The notes under the pieces were generated by a model. That model worked only from the letters and a program-made list of their open reading frames with translations, searched no databases and was not told the DNA's origin. A stretch of DNA of 64,000 nucleotides. Source: Notoacmeibacter ruber (GTDB lineage: Bacteria; Pseudomonadota; Alphaproteobacteria; Rhizobiales; Rhizobiaceae). Below, piece after piece: positions 56,086 to 61,321 of this stretch (the stretch's first letter is position 1; each line of letters opens with the position of its first letter). The stretch is from assembly GCF_003668555.1 (NCBI RefSeq), contig NZ_RCWN01000001.1, positions 124,001-188,000 of the forward strand. The letters are read 5' to 3'. A program made the position numbers and the translations under genes.

Positions 56086-57894
56086 ATGACAGACACACCG
56101 CGCTCCCATATCCGCAATTTCTCCATCGTGGCCCATATCGACCACGGCAAGTCCACGCTCGCGGACCGGCTGATCCAATCGACGGGATCGCTGGAAGAGC
56201 GCGAGATGAAGGACCAGATCCTCGACGCGATGGATATCGAGCGCGAGCGCGGCATCACCATCAAGGCCAATACCGTCCGCCTCGAATATGATGCCAAGGA
56301 CGGCCAGCACTATGTGCTGAACCTGATCGACACGCCCGGCCATGTCGACTTCGCCTATGAGGTCTCACGGTCTCTGGCTGCCTGCGAAGGCTCGCTCCTC
56401 GTGGTCGACGCGTCGCAGGGGGTCGAGGCGCAGACGCTGGCGAATGTCTATCAGGCGATCGACAATGACCACGAACTCGTCACCGTCCTCAACAAGATCG
56501 ACCTGCCCGCCGCCGAGCCGGACCGCATCAAGGAGCAGATCGAGGAGGTGATCGGCATCGATGCTTCCGACGCCATACCCATCAGCGCGAAAAGCGGCAT
56601 GGGCATTCCGGACGTGCTGGAAGCCATCGTGCAGCGCCTGCCCGCGCCGAAGGAAGGGGATGCGAATGCGCCGCTGAAAGCGATGCTCGTCGACAGTTGG
56701 TACGACGCCTATCTCGGCGTGATCGTGCTGGTCCGCATCATCGACGGCAAGCTTAAGAAGGGCCAGACCATTCGCATGATGGGCACGGGCGCGAAGTACC
56801 CCGTTGAGCGCGTCGGCGTCCTGACGCCCAAAATGGTGCTGATCGACGAACTCGGCCCCGGTGAGATCGGTGTCATCACGGCCTCCATCAAGGAAGTTGC
56901 GGATACCCGCGTCGGCGACACAATCACCGAGGACAAGAAGCCCTGCGCCAAGATGCTGCCGGGCTTCAAGCCGGCCCAGCCGGTCGTCTTCTGCGGCCTG
57001 TTTCCGGTCGATGCCGCCGATTTCGAGGACCTGCGCGCCGCAATGGGCAAGCTCCGCCTGAACGACGCCTCGTTCAGTTTCGAGATGGAAACATCGGCCG
57101 CACTCGGCTTCGGCTTCCGCTGCGGCTTCCTTGGCCTGCTCCACCTGGAAATCATTCAGGAGCGCCTCAGCCGCGAATTCGACCTCGAGCTGATCGCGAC
57201 GGCGCCGTCCGTGGTCTACCAGATCACCATGACCGATGGCAGCGAGATCGAGCTGCACAACCCGGCCGACATGCCCGACGTGGTCAAGATCGAGCACATC
57301 AAGGAGCCGTGGATTCGCGCCTCCATCATGACGCCGGACGAGTATCTCGGCCCGATCCTGACGCTCTGCCAGGAGCGGCGCGGCATCCAGCAGGACCTCT
57401 CCTATGTCGGCAGCCGCGCAATGGTGGTCTACGACCTGCCGCTGAACGAGGTGGTGTTCGACTTCTACGACCGGCTGAAGAGCATCTCGAAGGGCTATGC
57501 CAGCTTCGACTACCAGATCAGCGATTATCGCGAGGGCGACCTCGTCAAGATGAGCGTTCTCGTCAATGAAGAGCCGGTCGACGCGCTCTCAATGCTGGTT
57601 CACCGCAGCCAAGCCGAACGGCGCGGGCGCGGCATGTGCGAGAAGCTGAAGGAACTGATCCCCCGCCACCTCTTCAAGATTCCGATCCAGGCGGCCATTG
57701 GCGGCAAGGTCATCGCCCGCGAAACGCTCAGCGCCATGAGGAAGGACGTGACCGCCAAATGCTATGGCGGCGACGCGACCCGCAAGCGCAAGCTTCTGGA
57801 GAAGCAGAAAGAGGGCAAGAAGAAGATGCGCCAGTTCGGCCGCGTCGAAATCCCTCAGGAAGCGTTTATTCAAGCACTGAAGATGGATAATTGA
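56086..57894 (+). CDS. lepA: Elongation factor 4 (LepA)
   Basis: A 602-residue ribosome-associated GTPase that back-translocates or assists initiation under stress. G motifs: [14 protein letters not shown] (G1 near residue 16), [14 protein letters not shown] (G2), [21 protein letters not shown] (G3), NKIDLPAA (G4). The LepA-specific C-terminus ([36 protein letters not shown]) is intact. Its bases are clearly GC-rich, in contrast to the next two genes. Confidence 0.97.
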
Positions 57895-57998
57895 GGCGCA
57901 CTAAGCCGATTTCATCTACCGGCATTGCAATTAATTGTAGCACGTCACAACATATGCGCCTGTTCGGTATTGTTTTGCTCGAGAGAATCGGCAACGCT

Positions 57999-58017
57999 TA
58001 TCTCCATTTCGGAGATA
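57999..58017 (+). promoter_or_regulatory. Hairpin hiding the ribosome binding site of the KTSC gene
   Basis: TATCTCC (57999-58005) and GGAGATA (58011-58017) form a perfect 7-bp stem with loop ATTTC. The GGAG part is the only Shine-Dalgarno candidate for the ATG at 58021, three bases beyond the stem. Folding would block translation of the KTSC gene and, through overlap, perhaps the OLD gene. Confidence 0.55.
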
Positions 58018-58020
58018 GGC

Positions 58021-58230
58021 ATGCCGACAATCGAGTCATCTCTAATTGAATTCGCGGAATACGACGCCGAATTAAGCGTCCTTGTTTTGTATCTAGTTGG
58101 CGGGCGAGTATACAAATATTTTGACGTGCCATCCGGCGTTTATTCGGACTTGTTGGCAGCCGACTCGGCTGGGTCGTTTTTTAATAGAAAAATAAAAAAC
58201 GAATATAGGTTTGAGAATGCGGCTAGATAG
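58021..58230 (+). CDS. KTSC domain protein
   Basis: A 69-residue protein matching the KTSC domain: SSLIEFAEYDAELSVLVLYLVGGRVYKYFDVPSGVYSDLLAADSAGSFFNRKIKNEYRFE, with the final YRFE and the conserved Y-DVP and A-SAGSFFN landmarks. The domain is named after a lysyl-tRNA-synthetase-fused example, and free copies are thought to bind RNA or protein; function is unknown. Its last 14 bases overlap the start of the OLD gene. It is AT-rich compared with lepA. A companion or control role for the OLD nuclease is inference. Confidence 0.85.
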   Translation: MPTIESSLIEFAEYDAELSVLVLYLVGGRVYKYFDVPSGVYSDLLAADSAGSFFNRKIKNEYRFENAAR

Positions 58231-60073
58231 CGTTTCATTTAAAAACTTCCGGTGCTTCAGAGACGAGAGAATCGATTTTAGCCGCATAACAACGATAGTT
58301 GGCGAAAATAACTGCGGTAAGTCAACTATATTAAAAGCTATAGATCTATTCTTTTCTGGGAAATCCATAAAGATAAGTGAGAATGATTTCTACATTGGTT
58401 GCAAGGCAGTCGATGAGATGAAAATCAGATTAGATTTCGCCGAGGTGGAGGGTAAGGCTGCAGAAGATCTGAGTCACTATGTCCGTAGCGGACGCGTGGC
58501 ATTTGAAATTGCAGCCAAGAGGTCAGAAGACGGAGCGATCGATCAACGCTGTGTAGGGATACGTTACGGTCTTGAAGAGTTTAAGCCTTTCTTCGAGGCA
58601 AACAACGCGACGGATAAGCGGCGTGTATATGACGCGCTCAAGGAAAAGTACCAATTACCAAAGTGGACGAATGTCAATGAGGCGATCGCCTCGGTCAATG
58701 CCGCCGAAGCCGATCATGTTGATGAGCATGTTGCGATACCTAGTTCTGTTCCAGCTTACGGAGCTACCGGCCCGCTTCCAACTCTTCAGCGCTATTTTGA
58801 CTGGATTTATGTGCCAGCTGTGAAAGATGTCTCTGACGAAGCAATTGAAAGCAGAAACTCAGCGTTTTCTAAGCTTGCGCTTTACGCCATTCGAAGCCGA
58901 TCCTCTCTTGCCAGCGAAATTGAGGCAATTAGGGACACGGCACGAACTTCGCTAGCAACGGCATTAGAGAACTTAAGCGGCGACCTCGAGGGTCTCCAAA
59001 GAGATATCAATGAGGAATTTCGACAAATCAATTCAACCGATGTCAGTGTCGGTTTGGAGTGGCACGACGGCGGTCGGCTTGATCTAAAGGAGCCGATACT
59101 ACAGAGCATATTCAAGGATGGGCGTGTATTCGGCACACCTGATCAATTTGGTCATGGGTTGCAGAGAACGTATCTCATGGCTCTGCTTTCGTTAGCCGGG
59201 CGGGTGGGTGAGCACGATGACGATTTCAAACTGCTAATAGGTGTTGAAGAGCCTGAGTTGTACCAACATCCTCCACAGGCTCGATACCTGTCGCGAGCTC
59301 TTGCAGATATCGCTGATGCCAACTCTCAGGTAATACTCAGCACCCATAGCAACTATTTCATCGGCGGTCGCAGTTATGATGGTGTCCGGGTCATAAGAAA
59401 GCGCGAAAATGCCTCCAGAGTTTATCAGTGGAGTGCCGACGAACAGGCTTCGTACTATGCGAAAAGGCGGGGTGGAGAGGCGATTGGTGAAAAGGCTATG
59501 CTATCAGGCCTAGACCGCACATTGCAGACAGAGATCGCAGAGATATTTTTTGCTCCTAAGATAATTTTGGTCGAGGGTATAGAAGACAGGGCAATCTTAG
59601 AGGCCTATCTAGAAAAGCGCGCAAAGTTCCGAGCTTATTTGAAAGCTGGGTGTCATATTGTTCCAGTCAGCGGCAAAACTAAGATGCCGCCAGTTATATC
59701 TCTTTGCCGAGGCTTTGGAATTGATGTTTTTTGTCTTTTTGATCTGGACAGAGATAAGAAGGAAAAAGATAGAAACAATAATCTTATCGTTCGCTTTGCC
59801 GAGGATGCTGATGAAGAGATTAGCTTAGAAGGTGAAGATCATCATAGGGGCTCTTATTTCTGGGCTTGGAGTGAAAATATCCAAGCAGCTATTCGAAGCG
59901 ATGTAAAAGATTGGGACCGTTATGTGGAGGAAAAAGCGACAGCCTGGGGCTGGAGCAAATCAGGTATGTCAAAAGATCCCATGGTCCTGTCGGATGTGAT
60001 CGCAGAATTCGAAGGCGAAATACCTTGCCTTTCGGATTTGATTGATGCCTTAGAGCGCTTCTGGAATGCATGA
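58217..60073 (+). CDS. OLD-family ATP-dependent nuclease (AAA ATPase + TOPRIM)
   Basis: A 618-residue protein. The ATPase half has Walker A GENNCGKST at 29-37, the signature GHGLQRTYLMALLS, and Walker B VEEPELYQHPP (E344/E345). The C-terminal TOPRIM half has VEGIEDRAIL (E453, D457) and FDLDRD (D509, D511), the acidic metal site of OLD nucleases such as phage P2 Old and GajA. No UvrD-like partner is adjacent, so it is not an evident Gabija pair. Base composition is AT-rich (17 G/C of 60 at 58321-58380, versus 36 of 60 in lepA at 57121-57180), indicating transfer. A defence role is inferred. Confidence 0.9.
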   Translation: MRLDSVSFKNFRCFRDERIDFSRITTIVGENNCGKSTILKAIDLFFSGKSIKISENDFYIGCKAVDEMKIRLDFAEVEGKAAEDLSHYVRSGRVAFEIAAKRSEDGAIDQRCVGIRYGLEEFKPFFEANNATDKRRVYDALKEKYQLPKWTNVNEAIASVNAAEADHVDEHVAIPSSVPAYGATGPLPTLQRYFDWIYVPAVKDVSDEAIESRNSAFSKLALYAIRSRSSLASEIEAIRDTARTSLATALENLSGDLEGLQRDINEEFRQINSTDVSVGLEWHDGGRLDLKEPILQSIFKDGRVFGTPDQFGHGLQRTYLMALLSLAGRVGEHDDDFKLLIGVEEPELYQHPPQARYLSRALADIADANSQVILSTHSNYFIGGRSYDGVRVIRKRENASRVYQWSADEQASYYAKRRGGEAIGEKAMLSGLDRTLQTEIAEIFFAPKIILVEGIEDRAILEAYLEKRAKFRAYLKAGCHIVPVSGKTKMPPVISLCRGFGIDVFCLFDLDRDKKEKDRNNNLIVRFAEDADEEISLEGEDHHRGSYFWAWSENIQAAIRSDVKDWDRYVEEKATAWGWSKSGMSKDPMVLSDVIAEFEGEIPCLSDLIDALERFWNA

Positions 60074-60106
60074 TCTTTCGATGAAGTTAGCCTGCCCATA
60101 AGGCGC

Positions 60107-61321
60107 ATGACCCATCACACCATCATCCTTGGCGCGGGTGCCGCCGGCCTCCACTGTGCCGCCTATGCGGTGGGGCAGGGGCGCTCGACACTTGTCATCG
60201 ACCATGCGAAAGCGCCGGGCGACAAGATCCGCATTTCCGGCGGCGGGCGCTGCAACTTCACCAATACGCGCACCGCGCCGAAGCACTTCCTCTCCACCAA
60301 CCCGCATTTCGCCAAGAGCGCGCTCGCCCGCTATACGCCGGCGGATTTCGTTGCGCTGGTCGAGCGGCACGGGATCGCCTGGCATGAGAAGACGCTCGGC
60401 CAGCTCTTCTGCGATGGCTCGGCGAAGCAGATCGTCGCCATGCTGCGGGACGAGATGGAGCGCGCCGGCGCGGACCTCTGGCTGAACACCACCATCGTCG
60501 AAGTGGAGAAGACGGAAGCCGGCTTCGCCGTAACGGTCGAGCGTGACGGAAAGCGACAGACGCTCTCCTGCGCCAATCTGGTCGTCGCGACGGGCGGCAA
60601 ATCGATCCCGAAAATGGGCGCGACCGGTTTTGGCTACGATCTGGCGCGGCAGTTCGGCCTTCCGATCGTGGAGCCGCGCCCGGCGCTGGTGCCTTTCACG
60701 CTCACCGGCGCACTGCATGAGGAGGTGAAGGCGCTCGCCGGCGTCTCGGTGCAGGGCCGCGTGACCGCTGGTCAGGGCGGGCGCGGAACCACCTTCGACG
60801 AGGCGATCCTTTTCACCCATCGCGGCCTGTCCGGCCCGGCCGTTCTGCAGGCTTCGTCCTATTGGCGGGAGGGCGAGATGGTGCGCCTTTCGCTCGCGCC
60901 GCAGCGTGATCTGGCCGATGCGCTTCTGGAAAGGGCACAGGCGGGTGACGGCAAGAAGACGGTCGAGACCGTGCTGGCGACGATGCTACCCGAGCGGCTG
61001 GCGCATGACATCTGCGCCCGCGCCGGGGTTTCGGGCCGCCTGGCTGAGCAGGGCAGGAAGAGCCTTTCTAGGCTGAACGCCGCGGCCAATGACTGGCAGA
61101 TCATCCCCGCCGGCACTGAAGGCTACCGCACCGCCGAGGTAACGCTCGGCGGCGTCGATACCGACGCGCTGTCCTCGCAGACGATGGAAGCGAAGGCCGT
61201 GCAGGGCCTCTATTTCATCGGCGAGGTGGTCGATGTGACGGGCTGGCTGGGCGGCTACAACTTCCAATGGGCCTGGGCCTCGGCCTTTGCTGCTGGAAGG
61301 GCTATAGCCACCACTGGATAG
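60107..61321 (+). CDS. BaiN/HI0933-family FAD-dependent oxidoreductase
   Basis: A 404-residue flavoprotein. FAD binding: IILGAGAAGLHCAAYAVGQGRSTLVID at the start and ISGGGRCNFTNTR near residue 44; LVVATGGKSIPKMGATGFGYDLARQFG near 163; and the C-terminal GLYFIGEVVDVTGWLGGYNFQWAWASAFAAGRAIA, all typical of the HI0933/BaiN family (annotated as aminoacetone oxidase family in many genomes). Substrate is unknown. It resumes GC-rich composition after the KTSC-OLD pair. Confidence 0.88.
   Translation: MTHHTIILGAGAAGLHCAAYAVGQGRSTLVIDHAKAPGDKIRISGGGRCNFTNTRTAPKHFLSTNPHFAKSALARYTPADFVALVERHGIAWHEKTLGQLFCDGSAKQIVAMLRDEMERAGADLWLNTTIVEVEKTEAGFAVTVERDGKRQTLSCANLVVATGGKSIPKMGATGFGYDLARQFGLPIVEPRPALVPFTLTGALHEEVKALAGVSVQGRVTAGQGGRGTTFDEAILFTHRGLSGPAVLQASSYWREGEMVRLSLAPQRDLADALLERAQAGDGKKTVETVLATMLPERLAHDICARAGVSGRLAEQGRKSLSRLNAAANDWQIIPAGTEGYRTAEVTLGGVDTDALSSQTMEAKAVQGLYFIGEVVDVTGWLGGYNFQWAWASAFAAGRAIATTG

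Follow-up and report, generated by a model that had tools for sequence, protein, structure and literature searches.

Organization of the KTSC-OLD gene pair

The window, a 64,000-nucleotide stretch of the Notoacmeibacter ruber genome, carries two overlapping genes between lepA and a flavoprotein gene (Table 1). The first encodes a small KTSC-domain protein, and the second encodes a protein of the OLD family, whose members are ATP-gated nuclease effectors. The KTSC domain is named after the C-terminus of some lysyl-tRNA synthetases. A score of 66.5 bits against PF13619 (cut-off 25) assigns the small protein to the KTSC family. In the OLD protein, residues 1-382 match AAA_15 (PF13175) at 145.1 bits, and residues 444-511 match OLD-like_TOPRIM (PF20469) at 57.1 bits, both above the cut-off. 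In a 42-sequence alignment of OLD proteins that includes the one of the window (alignment A1), the Walker A residues G29, N31, G34, K35, and S36 are invariant, as are E344-E345, H377, E453, E456, D457, D509, and D511. The architecture is that of the OLD family, with an ABC-type ATPase followed by a C-terminal TOPRIM part and the motifs of both conserved. An earlier note on this DNA had described the catalytic residues of the OLD protein as intact, which is borne out by the invariance of the Walker A motif and the TOPRIM acids across the 42 sequences.

Table 1 Features of the KTSC-OLD locus, in positions of the window.
Feature	Position	Strand	Basis
lepA, upstream core flank	56086..57894	+	LepA_C PF06421
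AT-rich insert, lepA stop to flavoprotein start	57895..60106	.	Composition, junction comparison, repeat scan
GGAG stretch 6 nt 5' of the KTSC ATG		+	Sequence
KTSC-domain gene, 69 aa	58021..58230	+	ATG 58021; PF13619, sequence
KTSC domain, residues 5-62, YKY at 31-33	58033..58206	+	PF13619
OLD-family ATPase-TOPRIM nuclease gene, 618 aa	58217..60073	+	Pfam, PADLOC Old, 6p74
OLD ABC-type ATPase part, residues 1-382	58217..59362	+	PF13175
OLD Walker A GENNCGKS, residues 29-36	58301..58324	+	Alignment A1
OLD TOPRIM part, residues 444-511	59546..59749	+	PF20469, invariant columns
TOPRIM acids of OLD: E453, E456, D457, D509, D511			
HI0933-like flavoprotein, downstream core flank	60107..61321	+	PF03486

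The list of open reading frames gives a TTG six bases upstream as the start of the OLD gene; the ATG at 58217 was chosen, in agreement with the relatives in alignment A1. Because this ATG is taken as the start, the KTSC and OLD genes overlap by 14 bases (58217-58230). The ORF coordinates confirm the 69-residue and 618-residue proteins and the 14-base overlap given in the earlier note. This overlap suggests that KTSC and OLD are co-translated.

The pair occupies a variable slot

The GC and GC3 values of the pair (0.433/0.471 for KTSC and 0.470/0.452 for OLD) are far from those of the flanking genes (0.617/0.847 for lepA and 0.667/0.822 for the flavoprotein), with a GC of 0.596 for the whole window. 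Two other genomes of the genus, G528 and G441, whose lepA genes are 98% and 96% identical to that of the window, were compared at the same junction. In G528 the slot is empty, and lepA is followed by the flavoprotein gene at a distance of 184 bp. In G441 the slot is filled by another AT-rich insert, formed by a GmrSD_N (PF03235) gene and a gene for a 205-aa protein, and the flavoprotein gene comes after it. The GmrSD_N gene of G441 also matches the PADLOC defence profile NsnA, and the 205-aa gene has no Pfam or PADLOC match. Neither of the two genomes contains a KTSC gene or an OLD match to the window protein. The earlier note named independent presence or absence of the two genes in close relatives as a sign of an accidental link; in the small sample of three genus genomes, KTSC and OLD are present or absent together.

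The lepA-flavoprotein junction (L156, L185) is a variable slot of the genus that holds the KTSC-OLD pair, the GmrSD_N and 205-aa genes, or nothing. Because this slot is otherwise empty or filled by a GmrSD-type gene and another, the pair is variable cargo of the slot. The insertion between two core genes, claimed earlier from the composition, is thus borne out by both the composition and the variable slot. A vertical core operon was rejected, since the pair is absent from both other genus genomes and the slot is variable. The repeat scan revealed neither the ends of the insert nor terminal repeats, the promoter scan of the insert region revealed no promoter, and no defence-island-like setting was seen around the window's own pair. 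Elsewhere in the same genome, a second OLD-like match (G000 C1:2675066-2676897, minus strand) extends over two open frames, one of 506 aa and one of 142 aa.

Relation to known OLD systems

When solved structures were ranked by profile, the Thermus scotoductus OLD (TsOLD, 6p74) came first with an E-value of 1.3e-38, and the best GajA match had an E-value of 6.3e-18. The Old profile of PADLOC is the best defence match of the OLD protein, at 162.1 bits. By gene context, OLD proteins have been divided into class 1 (alone), class 2 (with GajB), and class 3 (with a retron), as laid out in the accessible text of PMC10568477. P2 Old and TsOLD of class 1 have the same ATPase-TOPRIM order as the window OLD and are its nearest relatives by sequence. 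However, a class 1 OLD is described as a single gene without a partner (accessible text of PMC10568477), and the window OLD is overlapped by a KTSC gene that recurs beside OLD in some relatives. The same difference applies to YbjD (OldB) of E. coli, a class-1-type OLD reported to confer anti-phage phenotypes on induction: YbjD is described as an isolated gene whose TOPRIM part is dispensable for these phenotypes (accessible text of PMC13261556), whereas the window OLD has KTSC.

Gabija (class 2, GajA-GajB) shares with the window pair an OLD effector with ATPase and TOPRIM parts, and the window OLD matches the GajA profile, but this match is weaker than that to class 1, and the UvrD-like GajB has no counterpart in the pair. 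Membership in Gabija was rejected, as the neighbours are lepA, KTSC, and the flavoprotein, with no UvrD/PcrA/Rep-like helicase among them. The earlier proposal that KTSC replaces a lost UvrD-like helicase was not supported: by sequence profile the nearest relative among solved structures is 6p74, described as class 1, rather than GajA, and class 1 OLDs are described as single genes. Retron-Eco8 (class 3) and PARIS (AriA/AriB) share the ABC ATPase with TOPRIM chemistry, and the AriA profile of PARIS matches the window OLD through its ATPase part only (residues 1-382); no reverse transcriptase or second effector gene adjoins the window OLD. Membership in a retron was rejected as well, with no reverse transcriptase as an immediate neighbour and no match at positions 57000-61000 to Rfam, which may miss retron RNAs. 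A small KTSC protein or domain accompanies an ATPase-effector system, as here, in some SIR2-HerA operons and in the HerA chain 8wiv; in these HerA systems the ATPase and effector are different, and KTSC lies downstream or is fused, whereas it is mostly upstream of OLD.

By sequence, the predicted nuclease of the window is class-1-like, and by context it fits none of classes 1-3. In KTSC-OLD, a known family of nucleases takes on a new gene arrangement. Searches of an open-licence library of papers gave no description of a KTSC-OLD system, in line with the earlier note, which knew of none.

Recurrence of the pair in other loci

A scan of 84,980 species genomes with the OLD alignment confirmed 292 relatives, of which the best 80 loci were kept and scanned with a KTSC profile built from 31 domains. 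KTSC lies beside OLD, directly upstream and on the same strand, in three of these 80 loci, with a gap of 82 bp in L005, an overlap of 4 bp in L012, and a gap of 111 bp in L066. No other KTSC was found in the flanks of the 80 loci (931,066 bases). About 0.05 KTSC would be expected by chance in these bases against the three observed, giving a Poisson P of about 2e-5, which is rough because the KTSC density was derived from one order (98 places in 397 genomes) and an assumed mean genome size of 4.5 Mb. On this comparison, with the density taken from that one order, chance adjacency was rejected, and the question raised earlier of whether KTSC is commoner beside OLD than expected was answered in the affirmative. 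Two of the 80 loci, L012 and L014, contain the halves of a single gene, and L014, L017, L019, L038, and L052 are among the loci that start near OLD, where a KTSC could escape. The gene in question, from Aurantimonas marina (L012:6001-6978 and L014:1-885; also G680 C7 and C14), is split at residue 324/325. The break coincides exactly with the ends of two contigs, which points to the insertion of a repeated element in this A. marina strain.

One of 11 viral-contig OLD loci (L122) also has a KTSC; there the gene order is reversed, and KTSC follows OLD with a short overlap. Further KTSC-OLD pairs are carried by the Streptomyces plasmids L212, L213, and L214. In Streptomyces, KTSC lies 52 bp (NZ_CP108982) and 51 bp (NZ_CP107856) upstream of a 618-aa OLD and less than 60 bp from OLD in NZ_CP108665. 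A Haloferax alexandrinus plasmid (NZ_CP106970, L215) has KTSC 52 bp upstream of a 628-aa OLD. The plasmid pairs were found by following KTSC and OLD matches and form a biased sample. Altogether, KTSC precedes OLD in eight of nine pairs, with L122 as the exception, and overlaps the downstream OLD in the window and in L012.

In the available flanks of the other eight pairs (L012 ends within the first OLD half), no lepA or flavoprotein match was found, so those pairs sit elsewhere. In each of the eight, both KTSC and OLD have a lower G+C than the remainder of their locus, clearly so in most, with the largest deficit of 0.21 for the L012 KTSC and the smallest of 0.02 for the L214 OLD; the difference is slight in L214, where KTSC and OLD have 0.631 and 0.657 against 0.676 for the rest of the locus. 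The L066 pair adjoins a DrmMI-type (DISARM-type) methylase (PADLOC, E 2.6e-94); a type II methyltransferase and a Schlafen AlbA_2 protein are encoded close by, and this setting is defence-island-like. Recurrence in unrelated contexts, which the earlier note had proposed to look for near defence genes, was found in L005, L012, L066, L122, and the Streptomyces and Haloferax plasmids, in one case (L066) beside defence genes.

Phylogeny of KTSC-associated OLD proteins

In a tree of 114 OLD proteins, from which the short fragments L014, L118, and L036 were dropped and in which L012 was kept as a half, the window, L012, and L005 proteins fall in one strongly supported clade. Their OLD proteins are about 48-50% (L012) and 37% (L005) identical to that of the window. 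The other 14 members of the clade are metagenome proteins of unknown context, and KTSC lies upstream in all three members with a readable context. The OLDs of L066, L122, the Streptomyces set, and Haloferax fall outside this clade. The KTSC label changes five times on the tree when the 14 metagenome proteins are left out of the label. A single clade for eight of the nine KTSC-associated OLDs was rejected with a p-AU of 4.8e-89, on 36 hand-chosen rows of the 114 (8 with and 28 without KTSC) and a quick tree with a long Haloferax branch. This rejection means that the pair was assembled or lost more than once. The KTSC tree has too few columns to be resolved, and the nearest rows of four OLD-linked KTSCs are mostly not OLD-linked.

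KTSC is an optional partner of OLD

In the order survey of 397 genomes, KTSC was found at 98 places in 77 genomes and OLD TOPRIM at 110 places in 98 genomes. Both occur in 26 of the 397 genomes, and only the window's pair is adjacent, as judged by eye from the listed places. The phylum survey of 398 genomes, which overlaps with the order sample, gave KTSC at 69 places in 51 genomes and OLD TOPRIM in 122 genomes; here too, no pair but that of the window is adjacent, and in the closest other pair noticed (G1065) the genes are separated by about 48 kb. Both surveys would miss pairs whose genes fall on different contigs of a draft genome. KTSC was not found in 77 of the 80 genome OLD loci, in 10 of the 11 viral OLD loci, or beside any of six plasmid-borne relatives of the L122 OLD whose surroundings were inspected. 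Of 11 Streptomyces plasmids that carry a protein related to the Streptomyces OLD, three have KTSC and eight are without it (tblastn, E 0.01). No KTSC-OLD fusion occurs among the 120 best OLD relatives, no new OLD pair came from the viral scans with the L122 and L066 KTSCs (whose OLD profile does not pick up the Streptomyces type), and a protein search with the window KTSC returned only itself. Since most of the OLD relatives examined are without KTSC, OLD evidently works without it in general. The KTSC-OLD association is rare and facultative.

Other genomic neighbours of KTSC

HerA is the commonest recognised neighbour of KTSC in the sampled loci. A HerA-type ATPase gene lies directly upstream of KTSC in 13 of 51 top-scoring KTSC loci (the best 30 of the 98 order places and 21 new ones among 30 of the 69 phylum places), and an OLD neighbour is found in none of these 51. 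The HerA profile was built from eight loci with Pfam support, and the other five assignments are by profile alone. The link between KTSC and OLD proposed earlier is more than an accident and recurs, but it is rare and facultative, and HerA is the commoner neighbour.

On plasmids, SIR2-HerA-KTSC was seen in two of the eight first-opened KTSC loci (Sulfitobacter and Pseudoalteromonas) and in two of six later ones (E. coli and Rhizobium etli) that were partly picked by listed names; Pfam supports HerA in three of these four loci. These three-gene operons (L189, L196, L207, and L208) have KTSC overlapping HerA or less than 30 bp away. The C-terminus of the solved HerA chain 8wiv is KTSC-like and matches the window KTSC with an E-value of 1.2e-10; the structure codes reported in PMC11291478 are different ones. 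The accessible text of PMC9503650 refers to an unpublished connection of HerA with a KTSC gene and an endoDNase.

Several other settings of KTSC were observed. On a Halorubrum plasmid (L210:2181-5213), an E2-type gene, a ThiF-type E1 gene, and KTSC stand in a row, and the same KTSC and ThiF features are listed together for the matches H69 and H70. On a Deinococcus plasmid (L211:5001-10204), KTSC and an uncharacterised gene lie near an opposite-strand UvrD-helicase/AAA ATPase pair of Gabija-like layout. KTSC is also found near the apparently unrelated genes of Mg-chelatase ChlI, ribonucleotide reductase/TSCPD, and catalase. One plasmid has it close to Ku, and the Haloferax plasmid L215 has it close to NurA and HerA. 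Phages of many hosts carry stand-alone KTSC genes, and the L066 KTSC matched 86 phage records.

Proposed function of the pair

We consider it somewhat probable that the two genes form an anti-invader module that has moved horizontally, in which OLD would be the effector and KTSC an accessory subunit. This reading rests on the foreign composition, the variable slot, the intact OLD motifs, and the overlapping genes, together with the presence of KTSC beside OLD in several separate lineages, on plasmids, on a viral contig, and once by R-M/DISARM-type genes. The pair probably fights viruses or other invading DNA. The class-1-type, ATP-gated predicted nuclease OLD may cut DNA or RNA (tRNA) of the invader or the host once infection is sensed. 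KTSC would most likely be a small nucleic-acid-binding adaptor that helps the OLD ATPase to make contact with its trigger or substrate, comparable to the part found behind or fused to HerA elsewhere, and co-translation could keep the two subunits in proportion. We infer that KTSC is an exchangeable accessory subunit. The accessible text of PMC7824862 calls KTSC RNA-binding and that of PMC9503650, citing PMC7824862, calls it DNA-binding, both as assertions; in the accessible parts of the literature examined, we found no measured KTSC function or nucleic-acid binding.

KTSC might also act as an inhibitor of OLD in the manner of a toxin-antitoxin system, made first and restraining the nuclease until infection removes or inactivates it. 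The small size of KTSC, its position ahead of OLD in eight of nine pairs, and its overlap with OLD in the window and L012 would suit such a role, as would the toxicity of the OLD protein YbjD when over-expressed (accessible text of PMC13261556). However, most OLD relatives examined persist without KTSC, KTSC follows OLD in L122, and in other systems KTSC lies behind HerA or is fused to it, which points to a stable subunit. A stable subunit accounts better than an inhibitor for the HerA fusion and for the reversed order in L122, and we regard inhibition as unlikely. We judge equally improbable that KTSC and OLD are separate cargo travelling together, an ordinary class 1 OLD beside, for example, a phage-derived factor. 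The rarity of the pair in both surveys and the stand-alone KTSC genes in phage records, 86 of them matched by the L066 KTSC, are consistent with separate cargo, but the two genes are repeatedly adjacent on the same strand in separate OLD lineages and at separate loci, no further KTSC lies in the flanks of the 80 loci, and all three context-readable members of the window's clade have it.

A housekeeping or DNA-repair role of the insert, in place of defence, is very improbable in our view. Cran1, an archaeal OLD-family ATPase, is reported to act in cell-cycle progression (accessible text of PMC12796447), and the plasmid settings of KTSC near Ku and near NurA with HerA point in the same direction; the patchy presence of the pair, its foreign composition, and its absence from both other genus genomes argue against such a role.

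KTSC as a possible shared subunit

Beyond an accessory subunit of OLD, it is possible, though doubtful, that KTSC is a general exchangeable subunit of unrelated invader-defence machines (SIR2-HerA, KTSC-fused HerA, haloarchaeal E2-E1 ThiF, and OLD) and that KTSC-OLD forms an undescribed context class of OLD. In the boldest form of this idea, KTSC may deliver tRNA or another nucleic acid to an effector of the TOPRIM or NADase type. AriB, the TOPRIM nuclease of PARIS, is reported to cleave tRNAs, among which those for Lys(UUU), Thr, and Asn are singled out (accessible text of PMC12409363).

In the field it is asked what triggers or directs OLDs of the stand-alone type, and for a class-1-type OLD the recurrent KTSC-OLD pair offers a small partner that can be tested. 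KTSC also links a class-1-type OLD to the HerA-based systems, in which this small protein is found as well. The pair spans several unrelated OLD branches, in bacteria and one archaeon.
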